The position numbers were made by a program, and so were the translations under genes. A stretch of DNA of 57,152 nucleotides from Ruminiclostridium sp. (GTDB lineage Bacteria; Bacillota; Clostridia; Oscillospirales; Ruminococcaceae): the NCBI GenBank assembly GCA_024682455.1, contig JAIKZF010000035.1, forward strand, positions 1 to 57,152. The letters are read 5' to 3'. The notes below the pieces were generated by a model. The model was given only the letters and a program-made list of their open reading frames with translations, was not told the origin of the DNA and searched no databases. Below, one piece after another: positions 1 through 57,152 of the stretch. Position 1 is the first letter of the stretch; each line of letters begins with the position of its first letter.

Positions 1-352
1 CTCCCCCAGACCCCCTCTCTCCTCCACCCTCTCTCTCTTTCGGGAAAGGCGAACCGCTTCGCCTTGCAGCGGGGGTAGGTATACCCCTTGACAAGTAACA
101 GTAAGCAAAAATATCAAAAAAAATCTGCGCCTATACAAGCAATAGGCGCAGATATTTGTTTTACTGTAAATAGCAGGGACTTGTAATAGGCGTACTACCT
201 ACCCCCATAGCAAGGCGAAGCGGTTTGTTTTAGGGTCCAGCCCTTTTTTAAAAGGGCTGGCCGCCGGAGGCACTTTAAAAATTTTCTTCTCTTTTCTTCT
301 CTTCTCTCTTCTTTTCTCGAGCGAAGCGGCTACTCGAGCGCAAGCGGCCACT
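1..352. repeat. Intergenic palindromic repeat, copy A (terminator-bearing)
   Basis: Non-coding stretch at the left edge. A core at about 56-221 has inverted ends: GCTTCGCCTTGC followed by GGGGGTAGGTA on the left, and TACCTACCCCC followed by GCAAGGCGAAGC on the right. Between them is an intrinsic terminator hairpin. Outside the core lie a CCAGCCC/GGGCTGG hairpin (237-260), the phrase GCCGCCGGAGGCA, a pyrimidine tract and two CTCGAGCG-AAGCGGC units directly next to the stop codon of the adjacent minus-strand gene. Three related copies occur in this window. No protein-coding capacity is apparent. It behaves like a short non-autonomous repeat attached to gene 3' ends, but its mobility is inference. 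Confidence 0.8.
123..153 (-). terminator. Intrinsic terminator inside repeat copy A
   Basis: A perfect 12-bp stem, ATCTGCGCCTAT / ATAGGCGCAGAT, with a short loop. Read on the minus strand it is followed by a run of eight T. It therefore fits as the terminator of the BMP-family lipoprotein gene that ends at 356. Confidence 0.75.
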
Positions 353-355
353 CAA

Positions 356-1780
356 TTACTCCGCCGCGGCTGTGGCTTCGATAACAACATCGTCCTCGGC
401 GGGCTCGGTGGTTTCGGCGGACTCGGAAGTTTCGGAAGTTTCCTCGGCGGTGGAGCCCTTGATAACAAAATCGGAGCTTGTGGGGTTTTCGTTTATCTCG
501 GTGAACGAGGTCGTCCTGCGGACGGTGTTGATGAGCCAGTTTATCTCAAAAATATTCGACGCTTCAAGAGACTGTCCCTTCTCGACCATGACAATACCGT
601 TGGCGTTCTTGATCTCGCCGGTGAAAATCTTTGCGCTGCCGGACTTGATATAATCATAATACTTCGAGCAAATGGTGCCGGTGCCGGTCTTTGCGGCGGG
701 GCTGAACTCGACCAGTCTTATCATGCCCGCGCCTATATCGCCCATGAACTTTGTGGGATTGAAGTTGTCGTTCATGACCGAGCGCACCTTATCAACGACG
801 TGTGTGGAAAAATTGAAATGGAAGCCTGTCAGGTAATCGTCCGGAGCGAGCTCGGGGATATTCGCGGCGTTCGCGATGAGCTTGACGCCTTTGCCCGCGG
901 CGTATCTTACGGCATAATCCGACTCCATGTAGGACATTATTACGTCGCAGCCCTGTGCTATGAGGTCGTCGACCGAGGCTCTTATCTCCTCCTCGCTGTT
1001 CGACCACGCCCAGTCGACGCGGACATCTGTCTGAGCCCCGAGTATCTCCGCAGCGCCGAGGCAGAACGCGTCCAGAACGCCGTACACGTTGTACTGACCG
1101 GGATCGGAGATTATGCCTATCTTGTTGGTCACGGTATTGTGCGCGGCAGCCATGCCCGTTACAGCAGCGGTCTGGTACAGCTCGCCCCCGAAAACGGTTA
1201 CGCACGCCGAGGTCTTTTCGCCGCCGAAGCTTATATAGGTCGTGCCGTTGAGGACGCGCGCCTCACGGTCAACGGAATTGGCGAATTTCTGGCTTGTGGA
1301 CACGATGATGTTGCAGCCCGCGTCACGCAGTATCTCCACAGCCTCGGGGAAGTCCGCGACAAGCACGTTCTCGATGTAGCAGGTGTCGAGACCGAGGGAC
1401 TTCTTTATCTGGGCGCGCGCCGCCTCGAACATGAGGTTGGTGGTGCTGCCCTCGACGGGGCCGCTGTACACGAACCCGACCTTATAGACTATCTTTTCCG
1501 GCTCGGGCAGCTCCTCGTATTCGTACTGGGGGTTGCCGCTCTCGTCGGTGACTATCGCGCCGAAGTCGTCGGTCACGAGTATGGTCTCCAGCGGCACCTC
1601 GGTAAAGGCGGGATTGCCCTCCGCGTCGGTCACGAGGTCGCCGTATTCGTCGGTCATTGTGACGGTCTTCATCGGCGGGGGCTCCTCGGGCTCGGTATTG
1701 CAGCCCGTGAGCGTGAATATCATCGCACCTGCCGCGAACGCCGCGGCGAGCATTTTCAGTTTCGTTCTTATTGCAGTCAT
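356..1780 (-). CDS. BMP-family (PnrA-like) substrate-binding lipoprotein
   Basis: 474 residues from an ATG preceded by AAGGGAG. An upstream in-frame extension to 1888 exists but lacks a ribosome-binding site and runs through the promoter. The N-terminus is a lipoprotein signal with lipobox LTGC (Cys27). Residues about 41-92 hold two copies of a roughly 24-residue repeat (TD-x2-G-x2-VTD-x2-GNP). Residues about 98-430 match the Med/BMP periplasmic-binding fold (VGFVYSGPVEGS, TNKIGIISDPGQYNVYG, GCDVIMSYMESDYAVRYA), which in relatives binds nucleosides or autoinducer-like ligands for an ABC importer. A Thr/Glu-rich tail follows. No permease or ATPase gene is adjacent, so the ligand is unknown. 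It is transcribed divergently from the PrsA-like gene. Confidence 0.85.
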   Translation of the reverse strand: MTAIRTKLKMLAAAFAAGAMIFTLTGCNTEPEEPPPMKTVTMTDEYGDLVTDAEGNPAFTEVPLETILVTDDFGAIVTDESGNPQYEYEELPEPEKIVYKVGFVYSGPVEGSTTNLMFEAARAQIKKSLGLDTCYIENVLVADFPEAVEILRDAGCNIIVSTSQKFANSVDREARVLNGTTYISFGGEKTSACVTVFGGELYQTAAVTGMAAAHNTVTNKIGIISDPGQYNVYGVLDAFCLGAAEILGAQTDVRVDWAWSNSEEEIRASVDDLIAQGCDVIMSYMESDYAVRYAAGKGVKLIANAANIPELAPDDYLTGFHFNFSTHVVDKVRSVMNDNFNPTKFMGDIGAGMIRLVEFSPAAKTGTGTICSKYYDYIKSGSAKIFTGEIKNANGIVMVEKGQSLEASNIFEINWLINTVRRTTSFTEINENPTSSDFVIKGSTAEETSETSESAETTEPAEDDVVIEATAAAE

Positions 1781-1828
1781 TCTTATTCTCCCTTCGGATA
1801 AAACTGCATAGTCTGCCATATTATATTC

Positions 1829-1834
1829 ATTATA
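1829..1834 (-). promoter_or_regulatory. Extended -10 promoter of the BMP lipoprotein gene
   Basis: On the minus strand TGCTATAAT forms an extended -10 (TG-n-TATAAT) about 50 bases upstream of the ATG. The upstream -35 position is AT-rich and poor, as is common with extended -10 promoters. Confidence 0.6.
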
Positions 1835-1916
1835 GCACATTTTTTTAAAAAAATCATTACTTTTTTTAAAAAATATTACTTTTTTCAAAAATTCACGTAA
1901 ATTTAAAAAAAATATT

Positions 1917-1945
1917 TTGCTTTTTTCAGAAATATATGATATACT
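1917..1945 (+). promoter_or_regulatory. Sigma-A promoter of the PrsA-like gene
   Basis: TTGCTT, a 17-base spacer and TATACT, with TG one base before the -10. A second TATAAT lies about 15 bases downstream. A ribosome-binding site AAGGAG precedes the ATG at 1991. Confidence 0.55.
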
Positions 1946-1990
1946 ATATTTTGTTATAATTTATTAAAGAAAAACAAGGAGAATACGGTT

Positions 1991-3370
1991 ATGAGAAAAA
2001 GACTTACAGCGGGTACAGCGGTGCTCATCGCGGCGGCAATGCTTCTGACGGGCTGTAACGGCAGCGGCAGCGAGGCTCCGGAAACGACGCAGGCCGCGGC
2101 AGCCGCTCCCGACAGGGCGGCGGAGATAGCGGACAAGTTCTTCGTCGGCGGTGCCGACAGCTACCCCGCGTGGACGGACACCGACCGCTCGAAGCTCGTT
2201 GCTTCCGTTCCCGAGGGCACGGAAAGCAAGGACTTCTTCGACATCACGTTCGGCGAGTTTTTCAGCGAATATATGTACTATCTCGTTTCGTACAAGATAA
2301 CCGACGATATGTCCGAGGAAAACAAGGCTACCTGCGAGAGCTACCGCGACAACATCATCAGCTATCTCACCTTCGAGAGAATGTACCTGTACATCGCCGA
2401 GCACGAATACGGCTTCACCGAGGCTTCGCTGACCGAGGAGCAGCTCGGTCAGATAAAGTCGGACTCCGACGAGGTAAAGAAGAACTGGGCGTCGAACTTT
2501 TACGCGTCCGCGGAGGAAGCTCTCGGCGAGGGCGCGTCCGAGGAGGAGAAGGAAGCCCTCTGCAACGAGGTGCTGAACGTTATCCTCGGCAGGTGCGGGC
2601 TTGACGGCAATATTTTCTATAAGTGGGAGCTCAGCCGCTTCATACAGGAGCTCGTCATCACCGAAATGACCAAGACCGCTGGCGAAGTCACGGACGCGGA
2701 CGTTCAGGCAATGTACGACGAGTTCGTCAGCGAGGCGAAGGATAAGGCGGAGAACGACCCTGCCGCCTACGAGAGCTTACAGGCGTACTCCATGGTATAT
2801 ATCCCCGAGGGCACCCGCACGGCTAAGCAGATAATGATAAGCTACGCCGACGAGGATCTCACAAAGATCGCACAGGCGCTCAACGACGGCGATATCGAGA
2901 CCGTGGCTTCGGCTTCTCTCGAAGCGTACAACGACGAGATCAGGGCGAAGGTCAGCGAGATATCCGAGAAGCTTGCGGCAGGCACCTCCTTCGACGAGCT
3001 GCAAAAGGAATACGACCAGTCCGGCAGCAGCGAGATGATCGTGCCGAAGAACTCCCCCTCGTTCTTCGACGCGTACAAGAACGCGCTCTACGCGCTGGAG
3101 ACAAAGGGCAGCGTGAGCGAGCCCGTGATCTACTCTAACGGCGTTTACTTCATACAGTACTCCGACGACGCGGCAGTCGCGGAAGCCGATGTAGAAACGA
3201 TAAAATCGAGCATGAAGAGCTATCTCCAGGACAACAAGAGCCAGACCGTGCAGAACGAGGCGTATACCCAGTGGGCGAAGCGCTTCCCCTACACGATAGA
3301 TTATGAGACGATAAAGGTAGACGCATCGAGCTCCGTGCTCAACGAGACTTTAAAGACCGCGCAGGAATAA
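1991..3370 (+). CDS. PrsA/SurA-like peptidyl-prolyl isomerase lipoprotein
   Basis: 459 residues with a lipoprotein signal peptide and lipobox LTGC (Cys22), so it should be anchored outside the membrane. The long helical, Glu/Lys-rich middle resembles the SurA/PrsA chaperone arm. Residues about 270-425 resemble a parvulin domain: they start with ARTAKQIMISYA-type sequence, continue with LAAGTSFDELQKEYDQSGS and end with GSVSEPVIYSNGVYFIQY, the usual beta-strand close of parvulins. Such proteins fold exported proteins after Sec translocation. The gene ends one base before the GTG codon that opens the pepF reading frame, so the two are almost certainly one operon. Catalytic activity of the parvulin domain cannot be judged by eye. 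Confidence 0.8.
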   Translation: MRKRLTAGTAVLIAAAMLLTGCNGSGSEAPETTQAAAAAPDRAAEIADKFFVGGADSYPAWTDTDRSKLVASVPEGTESKDFFDITFGEFFSEYMYYLVSYKITDDMSEENKATCESYRDNIISYLTFERMYLYIAEHEYGFTEASLTEEQLGQIKSDSDEVKKNWASNFYASAEEALGEGASEEEKEALCNEVLNVILGRCGLDGNIFYKWELSRFIQELVITEMTKTAGEVTDADVQAMYDEFVSEAKDKAENDPAAYESLQAYSMVYIPEGTRTAKQIMISYADEDLTKIAQALNDGDIETVASASLEAYNDEIRAKVSEISEKLAAGTSFDELQKEYDQSGSSEMIVPKNSPSFFDAYKNALYALETKGSVSEPVIYSNGVYFIQYSDDAAVAEADVETIKSSMKSYLQDNKSQTVQNEAYTQWAKRFPYTIDYETIKVDASSSVLNETLKTAQE

Positions 3371-3383
3371 GGTGGTGTCAGAA

Positions 3384-5183
3384 ATGGAAGAAAAGAACTT
3401 ACCGAAACGAAGCGAGATACCGGAGAAATTCAAGTGGCACATCGAGGATCTTTTCCCGTCCGACGAGGCGTTCGAAAAGGCTCTCGCCGACGCGGGGCAG
3501 TTCCCGGAGCAGATAGAGGCGTACGCGGGAAAGCTGTCCTCCTCGGCAAAGAAGCTGCTTGCTTATCTTAAAGCCGACGACGATATGACCGTCATACTCG
3601 AAGATCTCGCCAACTACGCGAACCGCAAAAGCGACGAGGACACGTCGGTTAGCCTGTATTCGGGCTGCTGCGACCGCGTGAACGCGCTATTCGTCCGGAT
3701 ATGCAGCGCGGCGGCGTTCGCGGTGCCGGAGATACTCTCAATATCCGACGACGATATGGAGCGGTTTTACAGGGAGGAGCCCGGGCTGGAGCACTACCGC
3801 CTCGCGATAGACCGCATCAGGAAGAAGCGCGAGCATATCCTCTCCCCCGAGGAGGAGCGCATAGCCGCCATGGCGGGCGAAATGTCCGCGACGCCGTCCT
3901 CGGTGTTCAACTTCCTCGATAACGCTGATATCAAATTTCCTGACGCCGTCGACAAGGACGGGAACAAGCACATAGTCACCCACGGCAGCTATATCCCGCT
4001 CATGCAGGGCGAGGACAGAGTGCTGCGCAAGTCCGCGTTCGAGGGGCTTTACGGCACCTACAAGGGCTTTGAGAACACTTATTCGTCGATACTCGCGGGG
4101 CATCTGAAAACGCTCGCGTTCAATGCGGACGTGCATAAGTATGAGAATACGCTGGAGGCTGCCCTCGACAGCACCGAGGTGCCGACGGAGGTGTATTACA
4201 AGCTTATCGACGCTGTACACGCGAATATGGACAAGATGTACCGCTATGTGGAGCTGCGCAAAAAGCTGCTGGGCGTTGACGAACTGCACTATTATGATCT
4301 GTACGCTCCCATGGTCAGCGAGGTCGAGGACAAGATAACCTACGACAAGGCGAAGGAGACGGTGCTCGAAGCCGTGAAGCCTCTCGGCGAGGAGTATGTG
4401 TCGATCATGCGCGGAGGCTTTGAGAACGGCTGGGTCGACGTATACGAGAACGAGAACAAGTGCAGCGGCGCTTATTCCGCGGGGACAAGCGTTCACCCGT
4501 TCGTACTGCTGAATCACACGGACGATCTCCAGTCGGAGTTCACCATTGCGCACGAAATGGGTCATGCTCTTCATTCATATTATTCGAACAAGTATCAGCC
4601 CGTCACCTACGCGGATTACAAGATATTTGTGGCTGAGGTTGCCTCGACGTTCAACGAGTCGCTGCTCATGCAGCATCTTCTTAAGACCACCACGGACAGG
4701 AAGCGCCGGGCGTTCCTGATAAATTATTTTCTGGAGCAGTTCCGCACCACGCTCTACCGTCAGACGATGTTTGCGGAATTCGAGCTGAAAATAAACGAGA
4801 TGCAGGCTCGCGACGAGGCTGTGACGAGCGACGCGCTCTGTAAGCTGTACGGCGGGCTGAACGACCTGTACTTCGGTGAAGGTATAGTCCACGACCCCGA
4901 GATCGACCACGAGTGGCAGCGCATACCGCATTTTTATTATAATTATTATGTGTATCAGTATGCCACGGGCTTCTCGGCGGCGATAACGCTGTCGCAGCGC
5001 GTCCTGAACGGCGGCAGCCGGGAGGTCGAGGACTATCTCGGCTTCCTCAAAGGCGGCTGCTCAAAGACCCCCATTGACCTGCTCAAAGGCGCCGGCGTCG
5101 ACATGACCGATACCAAGGTCGTCAGCGACGCCCTCGCCCTCTTCGGTAAGCTGCTCGATGAAATGGAAGAGTTAACAGAGTAA
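3384..5183 (+). CDS. pepF: Oligoendopeptidase F (M3 family zinc metallopeptidase)
   Basis: 599 residues from the ATG at 3384, which has AAGGTGG at good spacing. The frame is also open to a GTG at 3372. The M3 zinc site IAHEMGHALHSYYS (HExxH starting at about residue 390) and the downstream glutamate in VAEVASTFNE are intact. The length and N-terminal phrase FKWHIEDLFPSDEAFE are typical of PepF, a cytoplasmic enzyme that cuts peptides of about 7-17 residues. Downstream of the PrsA-like lipoprotein gene it may turn over signal-peptide or misfolded-protein fragments, but that link is inference. The sequence right after the stop is a long purine tract. Confidence 0.95.
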   Translation: MEEKNLPKRSEIPEKFKWHIEDLFPSDEAFEKALADAGQFPEQIEAYAGKLSSSAKKLLAYLKADDDMTVILEDLANYANRKSDEDTSVSLYSGCCDRVNALFVRICSAAAFAVPEILSISDDDMERFYREEPGLEHYRLAIDRIRKKREHILSPEEERIAAMAGEMSATPSSVFNFLDNADIKFPDAVDKDGNKHIVTHGSYIPLMQGEDRVLRKSAFEGLYGTYKGFENTYSSILAGHLKTLAFNADVHKYENTLEAALDSTEVPTEVYYKLIDAVHANMDKMYRYVELRKKLLGVDELHYYDLYAPMVSEVEDKITYDKAKETVLEAVKPLGEEYVSIMRGGFENGWVDVYENENKCSGAYSAGTSVHPFVLLNHTDDLQSEFTIAHEMGHALHSYYSNKYQPVTYADYKIFVAEVASTFNESLLMQHLLKTTTDRKRRAFLINYFLEQFRTTLYRQTMFAEFELKINEMQARDEAVTSDALCKLYGGLNDLYFGEGIVHDPEIDHEWQRIPHFYYNYYVYQYATGFSAAITLSQRVLNGGSREVEDYLGFLKGGCSKTPIDLLKGAGVDMTDTKVVSDALALFGKLLDEMEELTE

Positions 5184-5330
5184 CAAGAGAGGAAGAGAGA
5201 AGAGAAGAGAAGAGAAGAGAAGAGAAGAGAAGAAGAAAGAAAGAAAGCCCCTTTCTGGGGGAGGAAGAGAGAGGGCAGGACGGGAGCCCCTTTCCAAGGA
5301 AACGGGCTCCCCCCCCCCCCTCTCCCGCCC
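5184..5330. repeat. Polypurine (AGAAG)n tract, short hairpin and C-run
   Basis: Starts directly after the pepF stop. About 60 bases of AGAAG/GAGAA repeats are followed by purine-rich sequence, a GGGAGCCC/GGGCTCCC hairpin (5282-5311) and a run of 12 C. Open frames here are serine-, glycine- or arginine-rich low-complexity artefacts. Confidence 0.75.
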
Positions 5331-5672
5331 GCCCCCAGACCCCCGCTCTCCCGCGCCCCGCCCTCCCGCGGGAAAGGCCACGCGCTTCGCCTTGCAGCGG
5401 GGGTAGGTATACCCCTTGACAAGAAAAAGAAAAGAATAAACCAAAAAAAATCTGCGCATATACAAGCAATAGACGCAGATACTTTTTTACTTACATCGAG
5501 AAAAAACTATTGGTTCTGATTCGCGTATCGAATCTCCGTGGTACGGTATTTAGTTTAGGGTCCACCCCTTTTTAAAGGGGTGGCCGCCGGAGGCAACTCT
5601 AAAAAATCTTCTTCTCTCTTCTCTCTTCTTCTCTCTCTCGTTCTCGAGCGTTAGCGGCCTCTCAAGCGTGAG
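5290..5672. repeat. Intergenic palindromic repeat, copy B
   Basis: Lies between the convergent pepF and GNAT genes. It repeats copy A's left module (CTTCGCCTTGCAGCGGGGG, then TAGGTATACCCC and TTGACAAG), the terminator hairpin, the AGGGTCCA..GGTGG hairpin module and the phrase GCCGCCGGAGGCA, then a pyrimidine tract and CTCGAGCGTTAGCGGC units beside the GNAT 3' end. The right-hand core module (CTACC..GCAAGGCGAAGC) is replaced by unrelated sequence near 5490-5550. The hairpin at 5562-5583 is CCACCCC/GGGGTGG, against CCAGCCC/GGGCTGG in the other copies: a paired change that keeps the stem. Confidence 0.75.
5450..5480. terminator. Bidirectional terminator inside repeat copy B
   Basis: Stem ATCTGCGCATAT / ATAGACGCAGAT with one mismatch. 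It is preceded by A8 and followed by ACTTTTTT, so it has a U-run in both directions, suiting the convergent pepF and acetyltransferase genes. Confidence 0.6.
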
Positions 5673-5678
5673 CGGGGT

Positions 5679-6170
5679 TTACAAGGTTTTGTAGTACAGG
5701 ATGATATTGTCGTAGGAACCGTCAGGACGCAAAAAACCGGCGGGTATTTCGCCGAGACGTACAAACCCGAGGCTTTCGTAAAGCCCCTGAGCAGCCGTGT
5801 TCGATGCGGTGACCGCGTTGAACTGCATAATGCGGAACCCGCGCTCCCTGCCCTTTTCGAGAGAGTGCTCAACCAGCATCCTGCCGATCCCGTAGCCGCG
5901 GGCAGTCTCGTCAACGGCAAAGCTCGCATTACATATGTGACTGCACCTGCCGACGTTGTTCGGGTGAAGAATGTAAAGCCCGACTATATCGCCGTTCCTG
6001 ACGTCCTCCGCCACGCCCGTAAATGTCTGCGAATTGAAGAAATGAGCCGCCGTATGACCGTTCAGCTTGGTGCTCTGCGGAAAGGCGTTCCCGTCGTCAA
6101 CGACCTTGTTCCAGATCCCGATCATGTCGCGGAGATCCTTGGGTTCAAATTCTCTGATAACAATATCCAT
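5679..6170 (-). CDS. GNAT-family N-acetyltransferase
   Basis: 163 residues, the normal size for a single GNAT domain. The acetyl-CoA pyrophosphate-binding loop appears as ARGYGIGRML (Q/RxxGxG/A type, about residues 91-100), followed by the beta-bulge and the closing ASNTAAQGLYESLGFVRLGE block typical of motif B. It should transfer an acetyl group to an amine, but the substrate cannot be read from the sequence. The ribosome-binding site is weak. It lies downstream of the terminator of the 6246-7622 gene on the same strand, and no clear promoter was found in the 75-base gap. Confidence 0.85.
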   Translation of the reverse strand: MDIVIREFEPKDLRDMIGIWNKVVDDGNAFPQSTKLNGHTAAHFFNSQTFTGVAEDVRNGDIVGLYILHPNNVGRCSHICNASFAVDETARGYGIGRMLVEHSLEKGRERGFRIMQFNAVTASNTAAQGLYESLGFVRLGEIPAGFLRPDGSYDNIILYYKTL

Positions 6171-6205
6171 AGTATTACCGCTTTTTCGTATGATTCTTAG
6201 ACAAA

Positions 6206-6226
6206 AAGCCCCGTTTTCCGGGGCTT
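6206..6226 (-). terminator. Intrinsic terminator of the first SPDTG-protein gene
   Basis: On the minus strand AAGCCCCG, loop GAAAA, CGGGGCTT and then TTTGTCT. It follows the stop codon at 6246 by about 20 bases. Confidence 0.75.
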
Positions 6227-6245
6227 TCTGCTGTTATGGGATAAA

Positions 6246-7622: not shown

Positions 7623-7677
7623 CTGATTTATCCTCCTGAATGTTTTCTGCGGCTATGACCGCGTTTTTCTGTTTAAT

Positions 7678-7707
7678 ATGACCGGAACCCATTATGATCC
7701 CGGTCAT
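7678..7707 (-). other. Intercistronic hairpin between two SPDTG-protein genes
   Basis: Stem ATGACCGG / CCGGTCAT just after the stop of the upstream gene. No T-run follows on the minus strand, so it looks more like an RNA-processing or stability hairpin, or a leaky attenuator, than a full terminator. Confidence 0.5.
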
Positions 7708-7728
7708 TTAAGCTACTGTCTTAAAGAA

Positions 7729-8994: not shown

Positions 8995-9068
8995 ATTTGA
9001 TTATCCTCCGTCTGATCATTTTGACCATTTAAGCATTACAACCGCTTGAAAAAACGATTTACACGTAT

Positions 9069-9097
9069 ATTATAGCGCATTGCCGTTAATTTTACAA
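9069..9097 (-). promoter_or_regulatory. Sigma-A promoter of the SPDTG protein 2/1 operon
   Basis: On the minus strand TTGTAA, a 17-base spacer and TATAAT, about 70 bases upstream of the ATG at 8994. A GGAGG ribosome-binding site follows. Confidence 0.7.
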
Positions 9098-9199
9098 TAC
9101 GCATTTTGCACAAAATTCAATTAAGCATTTGTTATTTTTGTTCAAGAAAACTAATATTTTCTTACATTTTTAACAAAAATTAAACAAATAAAAAAACAA

Positions 9200-9221
9200 G
9201 ACCCCCGGATGACCGGGGGTC
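9200..9221 (-). terminator. Intrinsic terminator of SPDTG protein 3
   Basis: Perfect stem GACCCCCGG / CCGGGGGTC with a four-base loop, followed on the minus strand by TTGTTTTTTT. It separates this gene from the next SPDTG operon. Confidence 0.85.
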
Positions 9222-9233
9222 GTTTGATAGAGC

Positions 9234-10019: not shown

Positions 10020-10052
10020 TTTTTTATCCTCCATAGATATTTTTTCCGTTTT

Positions 10053-20501: not shown

Positions 20502-20599
20502 GGTTAAAATAAACACAAAATCAAGAGAATTTAATCATTTTTAGGGCATTTTTTACATCACCGCACGAAAAAACCAACACAACCCGCGCCGCGCCGGTA

Positions 20600-20960
20600 A
20601 AAGAAGCCGCTTACGCTCGGGAACGGGAACAAGTGGCCGCTGCGCTCGAGAACGGGAACAAGAAGCCGCTTACGCTCGAGAGGCCGCTGCGCTCGAGTGC
20701 CTCCGGCGGCCAGCCCTTTTAAAAAAGGGCTGGACCCTAAAACAAATCGCTTCGCCTTGCTATGGGGGGAGGTAGTGCGCCTTTTCAAGTAACTGCCAAT
20801 TGAGAACTGCCCTCAATCTGATGAACCTCACGGCTGCGAGGCACAGACCCGCCCATAGCAGAAAAGTAACAGACGGATTCGCCGCGGGGCGCTCCCCGCC
20901 GCCTTGCTATGGGGGGAGGTAGTGCGCCTTTTGATAGTAAAAATACCAACTGCACTTTTT
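20600..20960. repeat. Intergenic palindromic repeat, copy C (rearranged)
   Basis: Non-coding. It starts with four GCCGCT-n2-CGCTCG units alternating with GGAACGGGAACAAG spacers. Next come the phrase TGCCTCCGGCGGC, the CCAGCCC/GGGCTGG hairpin (20710-20733), and GCTTCGCCTTGCTATGGGGG with AGGTAGTGCGCC. A second GCCTTGCTATGGGG module follows at about 20900-20935 in the same orientation instead of inverted. The segment between them shares no terminator with copies A or B. At 20570-20598 there is a worn copy of the nearby htrA terminator stem, which suggests a local duplication. Confidence 0.7.
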
Positions 20961-20970
20961 TGACATACAA

Positions 20971-21000
20971 AAACCGGCACAGCCTGCGCCGTGCCGGTTT
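20971..21000 (-). terminator. Intrinsic terminator of the htrA-type gene
   Basis: Stem AAACCGGCAC / GTGCCGGTTT around a GC-rich loop, followed on the minus strand by TTTG. It lies about 20 bases after the protease stop codon. Confidence 0.75.
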
Positions 21001-21020: not shown

Positions 21021-22481
21021 TCATTCCTTGGTGCTCTCGGTGAGCTCGATGTCGATATCTATGCTGTCAACGCCGCCGAGACCGTTCTCGCGGGCTACCG
21101 TCACCGTGACGGTGTCGCCTACCTTGAACTTGCTCAGTATGGTCTGTACGTCCTTCAGCGAAGCCACGTTCGTGCCGTTCACCTTGGTGATGATATCGCC
21201 TACGCTCAGACCGCTCTTCTCAACGGGAGCTCCCTTGTTGAGCGAAGCTACCAGCATACCCTTGGAAAGCTTGGTGCCGTAGGCTCTCGCTCTGTATTCG
21301 TTGAGCGGTATGGTCGATATGCCGAGCACCGGACGGCTCTTTACATAGCCGTAGGTGAGCAGGTCTTCCATAATCGGCTTTGCTTCGTCTATCGTCAGCG
21401 CAAAGCCTATGCCCTCATACGTCGTGACGACTATCTTGGAGTTTACAACGCCCACGACTCTGCCGTACATATCGAACATTCCGCCGCCGGAGTTGCCGCT
21501 GTTGATGGCAGCGTCGGTCTGGATAAGGCTTATGCTGTAGCCGCTTTCGTTGAGGCACTCAACGTCGAGACCAGAAACGATGCCCGTAGTCATGGTATGC
21601 GCGAACATGATGTCGGCTGTGACGCCGGGGTTGCCTATGATGGCTACCTGCTCGCCCACGCGCAGGCTGGAGCTGTCGCCTATCTTCGCCGCGAGGAAGG
21701 GCTCGTCACGCTCGATCTTGATGACCGCGATGTCCGTGGGGGTGTCGGAGCCTATTACCTTCGCCTCATATTCGTGGGTGACATCGGGGTCGGTGTAATC
21801 ATTCACCTCGACGACGAGCTTTGTAGCTCCCTCGACCACATGGGCGTTGGTGAGTATATATCCGTCCTCGGTGAAGACTATGCCGCTGCCGTAGCCCGTA
21901 TATACAGGCTCGGAGCTGCCGCTGCCGCTGTCTCCGCCGTAGCCGAAGAAGTAATCGTAGTAATCATAGGATTCCGCCGAATCCTGATACACCTTAACGA
22001 GCACTATCGTGTCGTTTACTGCCTCATACAGCTCGGGAAGCGTGTACTGACCGTTCACGCCGGTAGGTACGACACTCGACGCGCTCACCTTTGCCGCCGT
22101 AGTATCGCCGCTGCCGGACTCGGATATCGCCGCGATAGCCGACGATACCGACGGGTCGGTGTTTCTGGTGCCGCTCGTCGACGCGGGAGCGGGCGACCCT
22201 TCGGAGGAGGATGCAGCTCCGCCGGAGTCGGTGCCTATCACGCGGTTCGCGAGGTACGCTCCCCAGAAGCCCGTGCCTGCGCCTATCACAGCCACCGCCG
22301 CCACAAGAGCGACAGCCTTTGCGAATTTATTCTTCTTTCTCGGCGCCTGCTGAGGCATCACCGGCTGGGCGTACACGTATGAGCCGTTGTCATAGCTGTA
22401 ATTGCCGTTGTTATTGTTATTGTTATTGTTATTGTTGTCGTATCCGCCGTTATAACCGTTGTAATTGTAATTCTGTTCCAT
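21021..22481 (-). CDS. HtrA/DegP-type membrane-anchored serine protease with PDZ domain
   Basis: 486 residues. The cytoplasmic N-terminus is Asn/Tyr/Gly-rich with ten consecutive Asn (about 16-25), followed by one transmembrane helix (about 53-77) and an extracellular Ser/Thr/Gly linker. The trypsin-like domain shows the triad His in LTNAHVVEGATK, Asp in TDIAVIKIE and Ser in INSGNSGGGMFD. One PDZ domain near the C-terminus (KGMLVASLNKGAPVEKSGLS) is followed by a short tail. Such proteases degrade misfolded exported proteins. Gene-specific regulation is not obvious in the leader. The Asn run is encoded by a trinucleotide AAC/AAT microsatellite. Confidence 0.92.
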   Translation of the reverse strand: MEQNYNYNGYNGGYDNNNNNNNNNNGNYSYDNGSYVYAQPVMPQQAPRKKNKFAKAVALVAAVAVIGAGTGFWGAYLANRVIGTDSGGAASSSEGSPAPASTSGTRNTDPSVSSAIAAISESGSGDTTAAKVSASSVVPTGVNGQYTLPELYEAVNDTIVLVKVYQDSAESYDYYDYFFGYGGDSGSGSSEPVYTGYGSGIVFTEDGYILTNAHVVEGATKLVVEVNDYTDPDVTHEYEAKVIGSDTPTDIAVIKIERDEPFLAAKIGDSSSLRVGEQVAIIGNPGVTADIMFAHTMTTGIVSGLDVECLNESGYSISLIQTDAAINSGNSGGGMFDMYGRVVGVVNSKIVVTTYEGIGFALTIDEAKPIMEDLLTYGYVKSRPVLGISTIPLNEYRARAYGTKLSKGMLVASLNKGAPVEKSGLSVGDIITKVNGTNVASLKDVQTILSKFKVGDTVTVTVARENGLGGVDSIDIDIELTESTKE

Positions 22482-47520: not shown

Positions 47521-47609
47521 AGCGGTTATTCCTTTCTGGTCTGCCGCCGCGCCGTCCTTCTGTCGTTCGGGACGGCGATATCCCCCGGGAACTTCTCCCG
47601 GGTCCGATA

Positions 47610-48014: not shown

Positions 48015-48039
48015 CGTGATCCCTCACCTTTCAGGTCTG

Positions 48040-48891: not shown

Positions 48892-48909
48892 ATTATTCCT
48901 CCTTTTCTG

Positions 48910-50631: not shown

Positions 50632-50702
50632 ATTCACACCTCCTTTTCCGTTCATTATAGCAGCAAAAAGGGCATACTACCCCTTATACTACTATTAATC
50701 TC

Positions 50703-50731
50703 ATTATACACAAAACTCCCCGAAAAGTCAA
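50703..50731 (-). promoter_or_regulatory. Sigma-A promoter of the flagellar operon
   Basis: On the minus strand TTGACT, a 17-base spacer and TATAAT, about 70 bases before the fliK start. A short palindrome, GTAACAAAAATGTTAC, lies upstream of it (about 50770-50785). Confidence 0.8.
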
Positions 50732-50818
50732 TGTGATTTTGTAAGTTTTTACGATTATTTGCAATATCGGTAACATTTTTGTTACTTTTACACTAAAAAT
50801 TTCGTACAAACGACGGCA

Positions 50819-52192
50819 TCAGCCCTCCGCGCTCTCCGCGTCCCGCTTCGGGAGCCGGCGCCTCATGAAGAAGAAGCATATCAGGTGCACGAGGAACGTG
50901 GTTATCCACGAGGCAGGGTAGGACATGAAGAGCCAGAACTCGGTGTGGAACTCCTCAAGCTGAAAGCCCGTGAAGATCCAGAGCAGGCGCAGTCCGCACG
51001 CACCCAGCAGCGAGACTATCGTCGGGGTTATGGCGTACTGCATTCCCCTTATCGAGCCCACGATGCAGTCCATAAGCCCGCAGGTGCAGTACATCGTACA
51101 GACGAGGCTCATGCGCACAAGACCCGCCTCTATGACCTCGGGGCGGCTGTCGTATATGCTGAGCAGCGGCCTCCCGAGCATGTAGGCGATATTCCCCAGC
51201 ACCACTCCCGCAGTCGCCGCGCAGGCGCAGGATATCACGGCTATGCGGTTTATGCGGCTGTACTTCCCGGCTCCGACGTTCGCACTCGTGAATGTCAGCG
51301 CGCCCTGCGAGAACGCGTTCATCGACACCCATATAAAGCCCTCTATGCTCGCAGCCGCGCCGCTCCCCGCCATTACCACGGGTCCGAAGCCGTTGACGGA
51401 CGACTGTATCACCACATTGGACAGCGAGAACAGCACCCCCTGAAAGCCCGCGGGTATGCCTATCTTCATCATCTTGGACACCGTCTGTCCGTCCAGACGC
51501 AGCTTCCGCGGGTCGAGCCTCAGAGGGCCCTCCTCCTTCATCAGGCAGCGGATTATAAGGAAAGCGGATATGCACTGGGATATCACGGTCGCCAGCGCCA
51601 CTCCCGCCACGTCCATGCCGAACACTATGACGAACAGCAGGTTTAGCCCCACGTTTATCACTCCCGATATCGTCAGGAACACGAGAGGGCGCTTTGTGTC
51701 GCCCTTCGCGCGCAGTATCGAGCTGCCGAGGTTGTAGACGAGCATCGCGACCATTCCCGCGAAATATATGCGCAGGTACAGCGCCGACAGCCCTATCACC
51801 TCGGGCGGGGTCTGTATCAGCCCCAGCAGGTCGTCCGCGAACACGCAGCCGATAAACGTGAGCAGCAGCCCGCTTATCACGGACAGCAGCACCGACGTGT
51901 GCACCGTCCTGCCGACGCGCTCGTCGTCACGGGCTCCGAGATAGTGCGACGCCAGCACGTTCGCGCCCGTCGAGAACCCGAGGAACAGATTCGTCATCAG
52001 GTTCACGAGCGACGAGGTAGCCGTCACAGCCGCCAGAGAGTGCTCGCTCGCGAAGTTGCCGACTACGATGATGTCGGCGGCGTTGAACAGCAGCTGAAGC
52101 ACGCTCGACAGCATCAGCGGCAGCGACAGCCGCAGAAGCTTCGGCAGTATGGAGCCGCTCGTCATATCTATACCGTTCTTTGTTTTTATCAT
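50819..52192 (-). CDS. MATE-family multidrug/Na+ or H+ antiporter
   Basis: 457 residues with 12 predicted helices in two halves. The start KLLRLSLPLMLSSVLQLLFN and ADIIVVGNFASEHSLAAVTA is a MATE signature, as is SNVVIQSSVNGFGPVVMAGS in the second half. Such proteins export cationic drugs or organic compounds in exchange for Na+ or H+. The substrate is unknown. It is divergent from the 52273 gene, with an 80-base gap; no distinct promoter was picked for it. Confidence 0.92.
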   Translation of the reverse strand: MIKTKNGIDMTSGSILPKLLRLSLPLMLSSVLQLLFNAADIIVVGNFASEHSLAAVTATSSLVNLMTNLFLGFSTGANVLASHYLGARDDERVGRTVHTSVLLSVISGLLLTFIGCVFADDLLGLIQTPPEVIGLSALYLRIYFAGMVAMLVYNLGSSILRAKGDTKRPLVFLTISGVINVGLNLLFVIVFGMDVAGVALATVISQCISAFLIIRCLMKEEGPLRLDPRKLRLDGQTVSKMMKIGIPAGFQGVLFSLSNVVIQSSVNGFGPVVMAGSGAAASIEGFIWVSMNAFSQGALTFTSANVGAGKYSRINRIAVISCACAATAGVVLGNIAYMLGRPLLSIYDSRPEVIEAGLVRMSLVCTMYCTCGLMDCIVGSIRGMQYAITPTIVSLLGACGLRLLWIFTGFQLEEFHTEFWLFMSYPASWITTFLVHLICFFFMRRRLPKRDAESAEG

Positions 52193-52222
52193 TCGGATCA
52201 GCCTTTCAAAGCAAAAACGCGC

Positions 52223-52251
52223 TTGACAATCTCCGCTCGTTAATATATAAT
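52223..52251 (+). promoter_or_regulatory. Sigma-A promoter of the 52273 gene
   Basis: TTGACA, 17 bases and TATAAT, a full consensus match, 22 bases before the ATG region with GGAGGGG as ribosome-binding site. Confidence 0.85.
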
Positions 52252-52272
52252 CATAAGCGGAGGGGAAGTGTC

Positions 52273-53403
52273 ATGAAGATCTACTGTATAAGCGAAGATT
52301 CCATATATCGTGTGGACGAAACAACGCCCCGGAAAATAGAGTGCGGCAGGATAAAGGACTACCTTTCCGCAGTGAACGGGATGAAGAAGCGCGACGAGTG
52401 GAAGACCACCGGCAAGGGCGCGCACTTCATGAACGTCGAGGAAAAATACTACGATACCGAGAGCCGCTTCCTGCGTTCCCTCGGCACGGACGGCGAACGG
52501 CTCATATATACCACATACATAGACGGCGTGGGCGGCATCTATCTGAAAGACCCGGAGTCCGGGGACGAGACCTACATCACCGCGAACCTCAACGCCGACC
52601 CCGGGCGCATCTCCGTGAACAGCGGGAAATACTGCATCGACGCGGGAGAGGGAGCCTATGAGCGCCACATCGCCATGCTCGACCCGCATAACGGCAGCGT
52701 CGATCAGATAACCGAGGGCTTCACGAACGAGAGCAGTCCTTTCATATCCCGCAGAGACCCGTCGAAGATATACTACGCCGCCATAGGCTACGCGCAGAAC
52801 AACGCGGGCTACGTCCAGGAAAAGAGCGCCAGCTCGATATGCGTGTACGACTCGGACTCCGGCTCTCTCGAAGATGTCATAGCGGACCCGGGATACGATT
52901 ACATCAAGCCCTCGGATACCGCGGACGGCGACCTCTACTATATCCGCCGCAGATATCAGCCCATGCGCCGCAAGTCGAACATAGGCAAGGATATCCTTAT
53001 GTTCCCGGTGCGCATCATAAAGGCGATAGGCGGGTTTTTAAGCATATTCTCGATGATCTATGGAGGCGAGCCCCTGCGCACGGGCGGCGGCAACCCCGCA
53101 AAATCGAGGAACAAGGACGAGCGCGAGTGGTTCGTCGAGGGGAACCTCATAAACGCCCGAAGGATATCGGAGGCGCAGGAAAACGGCGACGAAGCCGTGA
53201 TACCGTCGGAGTGGGTGCTTATAAAGCGCTCGCCGGACGGCACCGAGACAGTCGCGGCCAAAAGCGTCATGGACTATAACCTGCTTCCGGACGGCACGAT
53301 CATCTATTCGGACGGCAGCTCCGTGCGCAGGCTCAATGCCGACGGCTCCTCCGTAAAGATATGCAGACTTAAGCTCGCCAACTGCATCACCGTGACAGAA
53401 TAA
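52273..53403 (+). CDS. Putative cytoplasmic beta-propeller protein, function unknown
   Basis: 376 residues from the ATG at 52273 (GGAGGGGA upstream); the open frame extends to 52180 without a start signal. Repeats of the type RLIYTTYIDGVGGIYLKDPE, HIAMLDPHNGSVDQITEGF, SSICVYDSDSGSLEDVIADP and DLYYIRRRYQP look like blades of a WD/TolB-like propeller. A short hydrophobic patch (about 250-275, FPVRIIKAIGGFLSIFSMIY) is not preceded by a signal peptide and could be a membrane or interface segment. No known family is recognised. It has a full consensus promoter and its terminator overlaps the cdd 3' end. Confidence 0.7.
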   Translation: MKIYCISEDSIYRVDETTPRKIECGRIKDYLSAVNGMKKRDEWKTTGKGAHFMNVEEKYYDTESRFLRSLGTDGERLIYTTYIDGVGGIYLKDPESGDETYITANLNADPGRISVNSGKYCIDAGEGAYERHIAMLDPHNGSVDQITEGFTNESSPFISRRDPSKIYYAAIGYAQNNAGYVQEKSASSICVYDSDSGSLEDVIADPGYDYIKPSDTADGDLYYIRRRYQPMRRKSNIGKDILMFPVRIIKAIGGFLSIFSMIYGGEPLRTGGGNPAKSRNKDEREWFVEGNLINARRISEAQENGDEAVIPSEWVLIKRSPDGTETVAAKSVMDYNLLPDGTIIYSDGSSVRRLNADGSSVKICRLKLANCITVTE

Positions 53404-53406
53404 CGA

Positions 53407-53805
53407 TCACTTCATAGAGCTGCTGCCGAATCCAAAGGGCAGCAGCTCTTTCATTGTGTGCGTTTCGTAACCGCCGTCCCTGTCGCAGCAGATGACCGTC
53501 ATATCTTCGCCGAACTCATACAGGAACTGTCTGCACATCCCGCAGGGCGTGCAGACCTCCCCGGAGCTGCCGATGACGGCGACCGCTCCGATCCCGCGGC
53601 GCCCCTCTCCGACGGCTTTCGCCGCGGCGGCGCGCTCGGCGCATATCCCGCAGGGGTAGGAGGCGCTCTCGACATTGCAGCCCGTATATATCTCCCCGTC
53701 CGCGAGGACCGCGGCTCCGACCCTGTACCCCGAGTACGGCGCGTAGGCGTTCTCCCGCGCCCCGGCGGCGGCTTTTATCAGCCTTTCGACTGTGCTCTTA
53801 TCCAT
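53407..53805 (-). CDS. cdd: Cytidine deaminase
   Basis: 132 residues. The zinc site is complete: Cys55-Ala56-Glu57 in PCGICAERAAAAK, and Cys88 and Cys91 in TPCGMCRQFLYEF. NVESASYPCG is the substrate-binding segment. It converts cytidine and deoxycytidine to uridine for pyrimidine salvage. It is convergent with the 52273 gene, and the last codons form one arm of that gene's likely terminator. Confidence 0.95.
   Translation of the reverse strand: MDKSTVERLIKAAAGARENAYAPYSGYRVGAAVLADGEIYTGCNVESASYPCGICAERAAAAKAVGEGRRGIGAVAVIGSSGEVCTPCGMCRQFLYEFGEDMTVICCDRDGGYETHTMKELLPFGFGSSSMK
53416..53449 (+). terminator. Terminator of the 52273 gene, embedded in the cdd 3' end
   Basis: AGAGCTGCTGCC / GGCAGCAGCTCT is a perfect 12-bp stem followed by TTCATT on the plus strand. 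It sits inside the last codons of the convergent cdd gene, so the coding sequence also serves as a terminator. Confidence 0.6.
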
Positions 53806-53846
53806 TTTCGTTACCTCCCTGCCGTTTTGTATGCTTCATCGCTTGA

Positions 53847-53875
53847 ATTATACCACATAAAGCGAAAAAAAGCAA
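53847..53875 (-). promoter_or_regulatory. Sigma-A promoter of cdd
   Basis: On the minus strand TTGCTT, a 17-base spacer and TATAAT, about 45 bases upstream of the ATG; GGGAGG serves as ribosome-binding site. Confidence 0.65.
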
Positions 53876-53879
53876 TGGG

Positions 53880-54059
53880 AGAGGGAAATAATATATTTAT
53901 GCCGGACTGTCCGGGAGGGCGGCCTCCGCGCTTATATCACATTTACACAAAAAACGGGCGCGTTTTTCGTATATATCAACAAATTGTGCTCTGCAAAAGC
54001 CCTCAATACCATATCTTGGAAGTTTTTCAAAAATTTCATCAAAAATTTTAAAAAAATAC
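53880..54059. other. Gap between cdd and ppdK promoters
   Basis: AT-rich, with a GGCCGGACTGTCCGGG-like palindromic patch near 53900 and an ACGGGCGCGTTTTT patch near 53956. No gene, no clear regulatory element. Confidence 0.3.
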
Positions 54060-54088
54060 TGGAAATTCCGTTAAAAATATGCTATAAT
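54060..54088 (+). promoter_or_regulatory. Promoter of ppdK
   Basis: TGGAAA, 17 bases and TATAAT with TG one base before the -10. A leader of about 90 bases leads to AGGAGGACAAATCC before the ATG at 54183. Confidence 0.6.
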
Positions 54089-54182
54089 AAATGTGTATTA
54101 CAGATGACCGTTGAAAAGACGCGCTCGCGCTTCCGGACGGACAGGCTGTGAAACCAAATAAATACACAGGAGGACAAATCCA

Positions 54183-56813
54183 ATGGCAAAGAAATACTGT
54201 TACCTGTTTTCCGAAGGTAACGCAGACATGAGAGAGCTTCTCGGCGGTAAGGGCGCAAACCTCGCGGAAATGACCAAGATCGGTCTCCCCGTTCCCCAGG
54301 GCTTCACTATCACTACCGAGGCTTGCACTCAGTACTATGAGGACGGCAGAAAGATCAACGACGAGATCATGGCTCAGGCTATGAAGGGCGTTGAGGAAAT
54401 GGAAAAGATAAACGGCAAAAAGTTCGGCGACAAGCAGAATCCCCTGCTCGTATCCGTTCGCTCCGGCGCAAGAGCTTCTATGCCCGGCATGATGGATACT
54501 ATCCTTAACCTCGGTCTTAACGACGAGGTCGTTGCCGCTATGATCGCCGGCAACCCCGACCCCACCTTCGAGCGCTTCGTTTATGACTCCTACAGACGCT
54601 TTATCCAGATGTTCTCCGATGTTGTTATGGAAGTCGGCAAGAAGTACTTTGAGCAGCTCATCGACAAGATGAAGGAAGCAAAGGGCGTTAAGTTCGACGT
54701 AGAGCTCACCGCCGCAGACCTTAAGGAGCTCGCAGGCCAGTTCAAGGCCGAGTACAAGAACCAGCTCGGCAAGGACTTCCCGTCCGATCCTATCGAACAG
54801 CTCAAGCTCGCTATCGAGGCTGTTTTCCGTTCTTGGGACAACCCGCGCGCAAACGTATACCGCCGCGACAACGATATCCCGTACAGCTGGGGTACAGCAG
54901 TAAACGTAATGCCTATGGTATTCGGCAACCTCAACAATGAGTCCGGTACAGGCGTTGCATTCACAAGAGATCCCGCAACAGGCGAAAAGAAGCTCATGGG
55001 CGAGTTCCTGAAGAACGCTCAGGGCGAGGACGTCGTAGCAGGCGTTCGTACTCCTATGCCTATCGCTCAGATGGAGCAGGAGTTCCCCGAGGCTTACGCT
55101 GAATTCGTAAAGGTATGCGACATTCTCGAAAAGCACTATCACGATATGCAGGATATGGAGTTCACAGTCGAGAACAAGAAGCTCTATATGCTCCAGTGCC
55201 GCAACGGTAAGAGAACAGCTCCCGCTGCCCTCAAGATCGCTTGCGACCTCGTTGACGAGGGAATGAAGACAGAGCAGGAAGCTGTTCTGATGATCGACCC
55301 CCGCAACCTCGACACCCTTCTCCACCCGCAGTTCGATACGGCAGCCCTTAAGGCGGCTACACCTATCGGCAAGGGTCTCGGCGCTTCCCCCGGCGCAGCC
55401 TGCGGTCAGATCGTATTCACCGCTGACGACGCTGAAAAGTGGAAGGCTCAGGGCAAGAAGGTCGTTCTCGTAAGACTGGAGACCTCCCCCGAGGATATCA
55501 CCGGTATGAAGGCTTCTCAGGGTATCCTGACGGTAAGAGGCGGCATGACCTCGCACGCTGCTGTCGTAGCGCGCGGTATGGGCACCTGCTGCGTATCCGG
55601 CTGCTCCGATATCAACATGGACGAGGAGAACAAGAAGTTCACTCTCGCAGGCAAGACCTTCGTTGAGGGAGACTGGATCTCCATCGACGGTACAACAGGT
55701 AACATCTATGACGGTCAGATCAAGACCGTTGACGCTAAGATCGCAGGCGAGTTCGGCAGAGTTATGGGCTGGGCTGACAAGTACAGAAAGCTCAAGGTAA
55801 GAACAAACGCCGATACACCCGCAGACGCCAAGAAGGCAAGAGAGCTCGGCGCAGAGGGCATCGGTCTCTGCCGTACAGAGCACATGTTCTTCGATCCCGA
55901 CCGTATCGGGCCGTTCAGAGAGATGATCTGCTCCGACACAGTTGAGGAGAGAGAGGCTGCTCTCGCTAAGATCGAACCCATGCAGCAGGCTGACTTCGAG
56001 AAGCTCTATGAGGCTCTTGAGGGCTATCCGGTAACTATCCGCTTCCTCGATCCTCCGCTTCACGAATTCGTTCCCACGGAAGAAGCCGACATCAAGGCTC
56101 TCGCCGACAAGAAGGGCAAGTCCGTTGAGCAGATCAAGGCTCTCATCGCTTCCCTCCACGAGTTCAACCCGATGATGGGTCACAGAGGATGCCGTCTCGC
56201 GGTAACTTACCCCGAGATCGCGAAGATGCAGACAAAGGCTGTCATCAAGGCCGCTATCAACATCAAGAAGGCTCACCCCGACTGGAACCTCGTTCCCGAG
56301 ATCATGATCCCGCTGGTTTGCGAGATCAAGGAGCTCAAATTCGTCAAGAAGGTTGTCGTTGAGACCGCCGACGAAGTTATCAAGGAAGCAGGCTCCGACC
56401 TTAAGTATGAGGTAGGTACGATGATCGAGATCCCGAGAGCTGCTCTCACAGCCGACGAGATCGCCAAGGAAGCTGATTTCTTCTGCTTCGGCACAAACGA
56501 CCTCACTCAGATGACATTCGGCTTCTCCAGAGACGACGCAGGCAAGTTCCTCGGCGCTTACTACGATACCAAGATCTTCGAGAACGATCCTTTCGCTAAG
56601 CTCGATCAGACAGGCGTAGGCAAGCTCATGGAAATGGCTATCAAGCTCGGTAAGCCCGTAAACAGCAAGCTCCACTGCGGTATCTGCGGTGAGCACGGCG
56701 GCGACCCGACCTCCGTTGAGTTCTGCCATAAGATCGGCCTGGATTATGTATCCTGCTCGCCTTTCCGCGTTCCGATCGCTCGCCTCGCAGCCGCTCAGGC
56801 AGCTCTTCGTTAA
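54183..56813 (+). CDS. ppdK: Pyruvate, phosphate dikinase
   Basis: 876 residues, the usual length. The ATP-grasp N-terminal domain starts KYCYLFSEGNADMRELLGGK and GANLAEMTKIGLPVPQGFTI. The phospho-histidine is in TVRGGMTSHAAVVARGMGTC (about residue 455). The PEP/pyruvate TIM barrel has GLCRTEHMFFDPDR, RFLDPPLHEF and a catalytic Cys in HCGICGEHGGDP. It interconverts ATP + Pi + pyruvate with AMP + PPi + PEP; in anaerobic Clostridia it serves a PPi-linked glycolysis. Codon use is strongly biased to a few codons (for example AAG, GAG, CTC, ATC), unlike its neighbours, which marks it as a highly expressed gene. Confidence 0.98.
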   Translation: MAKKYCYLFSEGNADMRELLGGKGANLAEMTKIGLPVPQGFTITTEACTQYYEDGRKINDEIMAQAMKGVEEMEKINGKKFGDKQNPLLVSVRSGARASMPGMMDTILNLGLNDEVVAAMIAGNPDPTFERFVYDSYRRFIQMFSDVVMEVGKKYFEQLIDKMKEAKGVKFDVELTAADLKELAGQFKAEYKNQLGKDFPSDPIEQLKLAIEAVFRSWDNPRANVYRRDNDIPYSWGTAVNVMPMVFGNLNNESGTGVAFTRDPATGEKKLMGEFLKNAQGEDVVAGVRTPMPIAQMEQEFPEAYAEFVKVCDILEKHYHDMQDMEFTVENKKLYMLQCRNGKRTAPAALKIACDLVDEGMKTEQEAVLMIDPRNLDTLLHPQFDTAALKAATPIGKGLGASPGAACGQIVFTADDAEKWKAQGKKVVLVRLETSPEDITGMKASQGILTVRGGMTSHAAVVARGMGTCCVSGCSDINMDEENKKFTLAGKTFVEGDWISIDGTTGNIYDGQIKTVDAKIAGEFGRVMGWADKYRKLKVRTNADTPADAKKARELGAEGIGLCRTEHMFFDPDRIGPFREMICSDTVEEREAALAKIEPMQQADFEKLYEALEGYPVTIRFLDPPLHEFVPTEEADIKALADKKGKSVEQIKALIASLHEFNPMMGHRGCRLAVTYPEIAKMQTKAVIKAAINIKKAHPDWNLVPEIMIPLVCEIKELKFVKKVVVETADEVIKEAGSDLKYEVGTMIEIPRAALTADEIAKEADFFCFGTNDLTQMTFGFSRDDAGKFLGAYYDTKIFENDPFAKLDQTGVGKLMEMAIKLGKPVNSKLHCGICGEHGGDPTSVEFCHKIGLDYVSCSPFRVPIARLAAAQAALR

Positions 56814-56819
56814 GAAGCC

Positions 56820-57152
56820 GTGCTTCGCACTCGAGTAGCCGCTTGCGCTCGAGTGCCTCCGGCGGCCAGCCCTTTAAAAAAGGGCTGGATCCTAAAACAA
56901 ATCGCTTCGCCTTGCTATGGGGGGAGGTAGTACCCCTTTTACAAGTCCCTGCGATTTACAGTAAAACAAATAACTGCTCCTTTCGTAACAAAAGGAGCAG
57001 TTATATTTTTTATTCTTCTGATTTCTTCTACTCTGTAAAGGCGCACTACCTATCCCCATAGCAAGGCGAAGCGCGTGGCCTTTCTCGCGGGAGGGAGGGA
57101 GGGGAGAGGGAGGGAGGGAGTCTGGGGGAGGGAGGGAGAGGGGAGGGAGGGA
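56820..57152. repeat. Intergenic palindromic repeat, copy D
   Basis: Non-coding to the window end. It starts with TCGCACTCGAG and GCCGCTTGCGCTCGAG units beside the ppdK stop, then TGCCTCCGGCGGC, the CCAGCCC/GGGCTGG hairpin (56866-56888) and the core: GCTTCGCCTTGCTATGGGGG at 56904, inverted as CCCCATAGCAAGGCGAAGC at 57054-57072. Inside the core is the ppdK terminator. The right flank is a GGGAGGGAGG polypurine tract. It is the closest relative of copy A, with a core of 169 versus 166 bases. Confidence 0.8.
56971..57003 (+). terminator. Terminator of ppdK, inside repeat copy D
   Basis: TAACTGCTCCTTT / AAAGGAGCAGTTA, a perfect 13-bp stem with a short loop, followed by TATTTTTTATTC. Its sequence is unrelated to the terminator of copies A and B although it sits in the same core. 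Confidence 0.85.

Follow-up and report, generated by a model that had tools for sequence, protein, structure and literature searches.

The same intergenic repeat occurs four times in a 57,152-nt stretch of the genome of a Ruminiclostridium sp. (contig JAIKZF010000035.1; hereafter the window), which raises the question of what this repeat is and why it sits with transcription terminators at the 3' ends of genes. An earlier note on this DNA had described a conserved palindromic frame with variable contents, perhaps a cassette for terminators or for inserts around them, and had assigned it to no described family. We followed the repeat through its own genome, through 71 genomes of the genus, and through the genomes of other species.

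Four copies in the window and an interspersed family

The four copies (A to D) and their modules were confirmed in the sequence where they had been placed. Copy A (1–352, minus strand) lies at the contig edge and adjoins the stop codon of a gene for a PnrA-like protein with a Bmp domain (356–1888, minus). It contains repeats of the GCCGCT..CGCTCGAG unit (316–330 and 333–348, minus), GCCTCCGGCGGC (260–271, minus), a CCAGCCC hairpin, and an inverted core pair marked by GCTTCGCCTTGC (56–67, plus; 210–221, minus) that encloses one hairpin with a T-run. Copy D (56816–57152, plus) follows immediately on the stop codon of a gene with pyruvate phosphate dikinase domains (54183–56813, plus), and has the unit at 56838–56853 (plus), GCCTCCGGCGGC at 56855–56866 (plus), the CCAGCCC hairpin, and an inverted core pair at 56903–56939 and 57037–57073, with GCTTCGCCTTGC at 56904–56915 (plus) and 57061–57072 (minus). 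One hairpin is enclosed at ~56969–57006, and a G-rich tract runs from there to the contig edge. Copy B (5290–5672, minus) lies between convergent genes for an M3 peptidase (3372–5183, plus) and a GNAT protein (5679–6170, minus). It carries the unit with one mismatch (5643–5658, minus), GCCTCCGGCGGC (5583–5594, minus) and the CCAGCCC hairpin, but its second half differs and only one core end is present (GCTTCGCCTTGC at 5384–5395, plus). Of the inverted GCTTCGCC core ends ascribed to the repeat, only one is present in B, where a different module takes up the other half.

Copy C differs from the earlier picture in having a hairpin on both sides, instead of a terminator within the core, and a second partial core (20900–20932). 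Its 370-bp body (20599–20968, plus) begins with a worn left end, AAAAGAAG, followed by four units within 20606–20697 (plus), GCCTCCGGCGGC at 20699–20710 (plus), the CCAGCCC hairpin, the core with a single GCTTCGCCTTGC (20749–20760, plus) and the partial core, and closes with the right end CTTTTTTGACATACAA (20955–20970), which has three mismatches to the consensus. A terminator hairpin stands at 20569–20598 (plus) and again at 20969–20998 (plus; ACCGGCAC..GTGCCGGT, then TTTT). The two copies share 25 of 30 bases, the 5' arm of the left one having drifted or worn, and the right one faces the 3' end of a gene for a trypsin-like protease with a PDZ domain (21021–22481, minus).

Copies A and B have GAAGAGAA-type purine tracts nearby, at 282–317 and 5186–5250, and copy D is bordered at the contig end by a GGGAGGGA tract (57077–57152). 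Both ends of the window fall in the repeat because such repeats probably broke the assembly.

The whole-genome search that the earlier note had proposed found copies well beyond the window. With copy D as the query, there were 89 matches at E ≤ 0.01 in the own genome (1.94 Mb, 109 contigs, 86% complete), a count that takes in partial and inverted self-matches, and another copy (L019) had matches at E ≤ 0.001 in 10 of the 71 genus genomes, including its own. The repeat is far more abundant than expected by chance, and the description of an interspersed, terminator-linked family at gene 3' ends, with a conserved frame and variable contents, was supported. Crude ORF calling placed a plus-strand gene on the left and a minus-strand gene on the right in 16 of the 41 copies with both neighbours called; in the same crude scoring, 21 of 53 copies had a hairpin with a T-run downstream by a strict definition. 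Since both strands contain long spurious frames, this scoring is unreliable and carries no weight here.

Element ends, duplicated hairpins and empty sites

When the copies of the own genome were aligned in one direction, a common order emerged, in which one hairpin is followed by GAGAGTGTCAAAGAAG, the units and modules, and CTTTTTTGACAGACTG, after which that hairpin recurs. Many copies thus have 16-bp inverted ends, GAGAGTGTCAAAGAAG…CTTTTTTGACAGACTG, and are flanked on both sides by one and the same terminator hairpin. Its sequence varies from site to site, and the hairpin is therefore a duplicated target rather than a part of the element. Our census took in 53 core copies in the fetched stretches, two of which were cut by stretch ends, leaving 51 testable copies; a duplication was called when it scored above the best of 20 shuffles. 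The hairpin was duplicated in 23 of the 51, copy C of the window included (17 of 41 copies picked by the core and 6 of 10 picked by the end motif), and in the other 28, among them A, B and D, no duplication was detected. Elements with a duplication were 159–370 bp long in the own genome and 135–297 bp in other species. These are the features of a MITE: short length, many copies, inverted terminal repeats, a target-site duplication (23 of 51 copies, with empty sites at three of eight loci, see below), and the lack of a transposase gene, as judged by length only.

These duplications bear directly on the idea of a terminator cassette, or of a REP-like regulatory repeat kept for 3'-end processing or transcript stability. 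It draws on copies A, B and D, where a single hairpin stands amid conserved flanks, and on the fact that every module forms hairpins. A cassette would carry its terminator as part of the element, whereas the hairpins of the 23 duplicated copies are of local origin, each a target specific to its site. We also found no match to PF01797, the Y1 transposase expected of a TnpA-REP system, in the own genome and no Rfam family at the gathering score in the window. We regard this explanation as very unlikely, although the repeat may still have a regulatory role.

The description of A, B and D, with a single hairpin that adjoins a core or is enclosed by an inverted core pair, still holds, and no detected duplication explains it; copy A also has no end motif. 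The flanks of the enclosed hairpin are alike in A (1–222) and D (56903–57073), and the hairpin itself differs in sequence. Judged from this layout and by comparison with loci L007 and L116, A and D could each be two elements abutting a single hairpin from either side. More generally, where no duplication was detected, as in A, B and D, the copies may be worn, truncated or stacked members of the family, a reading we hold less firmly than that of the duplicated copies.

The earlier note had also proposed looking for presence and absence at orthologous sites, which succeeded in part. We searched the joined flanks of eight own-genome sites against the 71 genomes, with four candidates scored per genome. 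At three of the eight sites (L017, L008 and L011), one or more other species gave an alignment running unbroken over the junction; for the other five queries, the scored candidates covered one flank or nothing over the junction. Site L017 has one hairpin and no element in the relatives G056 (92%), G022 (85%), G048 (79%) and G059 (78%).

The empty site speaks against replacement or partial deletion of the hairpin in the manner of IS1272, with the second hairpin being an unrelated tandem terminator. Such replacement has a precedent, since IS1272, itself an IS1182 member, targets hairpins without duplication in the available parts of PMC5678879 and PMC4923244. At our sites, however, the paired hairpins are alike within a site and different between sites, and L017 has one hairpin when empty, whereas filled sites have two. 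Replacement is contradicted at the sites examined and is extremely unlikely as a general explanation; it could hold for copies that lack the left hairpin.

Same-type ends with other interiors were found in four further genomes of the genus (G055, G054, G058 and G023), with the hairpins duplicated in many of these elements. The end-pattern search gave 23 matches in the own genome versus 1 in the control, 17 versus 4 in G055, 14 versus 5 in G058, 12 versus 1 in G054 and 8 versus 2 in G023, and outside those few genomes it returned mostly chance matches. At three loci with the same ends (L144, L146 and L153), the duplication is 7 or 10 bp long and contains no hairpin, and five other end-motif loci (L142, L149, L154, L157 and L158) had no duplication above shuffles; the short-duplication check of end-motif loci left out L164–L170, L050, L061 and L068. 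Own-genome loci L131–L137 contain an inner palindromic insert, TCTGTCGGTCAGCCCCTCTG..CTCCCCGCTAACGGGGAGAC, and similar inserts occur at loci of G054, G055 and G023. It seems to represent another family of repeats, nested in its turn within the MITEs.

Autonomous IS1182-type relatives and the feet of the hairpin

A transposase remnant of IS1182 type was found in the genus, in G039 (L116); it ends in GTTTTCGACAGACTGA, a matching right end, with a hairpin directly after it. Its 157-aa fragment scored 114.8 bits against NF033551, below the cut-off. At this locus, a right end, a hairpin and a left end stand in series, resembling the arrangement of copies A and D.

A scan of species genomes with the L116 transposase fragment yielded 70 loci, of which we examined 39. 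Twelve of them, representing 11 distinct insertions, had inverted ends together with a direct repeat (score of at least 20); at the remaining 27, many of which lie at contig ends or have partial genes, no bounded duplication was found. The 11 elements are 1093–1598 bp long and are flanked by duplications of 21–38 bp, identical in 9 of 11. The full-length proteins of L175, L178 and L181 scored 390–400 bits against the NCBIfam IS1182 model (NF033551; cut-off 270), which places them in that family, and one of them carries PF13751 and PF05598. The remaining partners were assigned to IS1182 by similarity only, and several other insertions have broken or short transposase frames. The elements lie in other Clostridia, among them Oscillibacter valericigenes Sjm18-20 and Anaeromassilibacillus sp. 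An172, and the remaining host genomes are mostly metagenome-assembled; as the genome of Sjm18-20 is complete, the insertion in it (L214) speaks against an assembly artefact.

The MITEs and these autonomous elements share their right ends. Read as the reverse complement of the right end, the own-genome consensus is CAGTCTGTCAAAAAAG and that of the IS elements is CAGTCTGTCGAAAAAC, with 14 of 16 positions in agreement when the consensus sequences are compared by eye. The left end of the own-genome copies resembles the IS ends less than the right end does.

In both kinds of element, the duplication mostly coincides with the hairpin. The hairpin feet lay within 3 nt of both duplication ends (score of at least 5) in 10 of 11 autonomous insertions, in 16 of 21 own-genome cases, a set that omits L016 and L027 with their short matches only, and in 11 of 15 cases from other species, where the set was chosen by hand among rows with a duplication and the fraction describes duplications rather than all end motifs. 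The same match of feet was found in 0.36%, 0.46% and 0.40% of shuffles, respectively. Pooled, 37 of 47 cases show this match, compared to ~0.4% of shuffles, and on inspection of the sequences several of the ten exceptions (e.g., L195, L028 and L038) proved to be a hairpin with added flank or a bulge. Among right-end-like motifs in the 70 IS loci, 34 of 38 lead straight into a hairpin (0.9% of shuffles). Around these GC hairpins, the outer flanks were A-rich to the left of the left hairpin copy (A-fraction 0.57–0.63) and T-rich to the right of the right copy (T-fraction 0.55–0.67). Decay of the left copy, which is cut off from the T-run, was expected and was not seen overall, the mean stem scores in the own genome being 7.7 on the left and 7.2 on the right.

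The autonomous insertions also bear on whether the flanking hairpins are a target duplication at all, or were instead made or kept alike after insertion, for example through gene conversion or selection that favours two terminators. Minor base differences do occur within some hairpin pairs, and two pairs have loops of opposite orientation, as would suit such later changes. Against this, 9 of the 11 autonomous insertions have identical copies bordered by the element ends, relatives have a single hairpin at the empty site, and the duplication at times takes in flank outside the hairpin (L028 and L038). We consider likeness acquired after insertion highly improbable. The inverted loops are those of L028 (contig C25, near 46536; ATTTT vs AAAAT) and L021 (C12, near 12858; ATT vs AAT), both in the own genome, and may point to hairpin-based flipping.

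In the own assembly (109 contigs, 86% complete), no intact helper IS with matching ends was found. PF13751 had no match at E ≤ 1e-5 in this 86%-complete assembly, and the best score against NF033551 there was only 20.5 bits (cut-off 270), from a fragment of another IS with different ends that is nested in a repeat copy. A transposase fragment beside a copy on contig C93 was ruled out as the parent element, as its relatives have TTAACTAGTTTCTCCTCA.. ends; it therefore belongs to a separate IS nested in the repeat. This nested IS occurs at C93 4720–4949 (L031) and at the end of C68 (L082), and relatives of its transposase were found in 7 of the 71 genus genomes. Other candidates in the genus were dropped: L115, L118 and L121, which match PF13751, have different inverted ends, and the inverted pair of L119 was no better than chance-like (14 of 18 matches).

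A proposed insertion mechanism and its relation to known elements

Taken together, the end-bounded form of the repeat is very probably a MITE belonging to an IS1182 clade that targets terminators, with a transposase that would join the element at both feet of the hairpin. The MITE, mostly 135–300 bp here, would be mobilised in trans by an IS1182 transposase absent from the assembly, which would recognise the imperfect ends GAGAGTGTCAAAGAAG (left) and CAGTCTGTCAAAAAAG (right, read as its reverse complement). Insertion would be directed to an intrinsic terminator, selected by its hairpin and not by its sequence. Each element end may be joined to a different strand, one at either foot of the stem-loop, and repair of the gap would then duplicate the complete stem-loop. 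The A-rich flank of the target would end up to the left of the left hairpin copy, and the T-rich flank to the right of the right copy. The transcript from each neighbour should then still reach a hairpin and a U-run, so that, as far as the sequence indicates, the neighbouring genes probably keep a working terminator after insertion. With a terminator rebuilt on either side, insertion would be nearly harmless, hence the location at gene 3' ends.

Few DDE transposases choose their target by its secondary structure. It is reasonably likely that this clade reads DNA shape instead of sequence, joining at the feet of an extruded cruciform, so that the hairpin sets the length of the duplication and outward-facing terminators are rebuilt.

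Direct repeats of widely varying length are listed for IS1182 in the IS reference tables. Our autonomous elements resemble that family in their transposase, their size of ~1.5 kb and their inverted ends, and differ from it in that the target duplication spans the entire hairpin and varies in length with it. Targeting of palindromes has been attributed to some members of the family (Siguier 2015, as cited in the available parts of PMC4923244 and PMC5678879). IS1272 and TnSha1 of staphylococci are IS1182-family elements that likewise target hairpins, several of them confirmed terminators, with no sequence preference; unlike our elements, IS1272 deletes or replaces the hairpin, with no duplication in the available text (PMC4923244, PMC5678879). 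In the parts of PMC5678879 that were available, duplication of a whole stem-loop figures solely in a hypothetical model, as its pathway b, alongside the replacement seen for IS1272, and joining at opposite strands of the hairpin feet followed by gap repair, as in that pathway, is the simplest account of our observations. The MITEs derived from ISMac2 in Methanosarcina acetivorans (160 and 169 bp) are likewise short, non-autonomous partners of an IS1182 element, but their direct repeats of 4 and 0 bp, as given in the available part of PMC3852290, are not hairpins. The pneumococcal SPRITE, BOX and RUP repeats are also small, modular, interspersed and intergenic, and SPRITE is terminator-like (PMC10969869; PMC3049150, both available in part); compared by description, the terminator-like part belongs to those repeats, whereas here the hairpin is the target.

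The statement that no described family has this structure was thus too strong, since ends and behaviour place the end-bounded form in the IS1182 family, and the suggestion of inserts around terminators came close, the element entering the terminator itself and duplicating its hairpin. Palindrome targeting by IS1182 was known. The documented duplication of a whole hairpin is new so far as the open literature searched shows: we found no report of a case there, the main IS reviews lying outside that search.

These insertions form a natural series, with duplications of 21–38 bp that end at hairpin feet, in many species and with empty sites, which makes reading of a cruciform by a transposase directly testable. 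They account for one class of 3'-end repeats that has gone unannotated in Clostridia of the gut and rumen, and offer a sharp way to locate the borders of such repeats. They also show a route by which mobile DNA enters terminators with both neighbours probably spared. If the reading of DNA shape is correct, the element would follow a self-repairing safe-site strategy, by which it and its MITEs could fill the 3' ends of genes in Clostridia at little cost.
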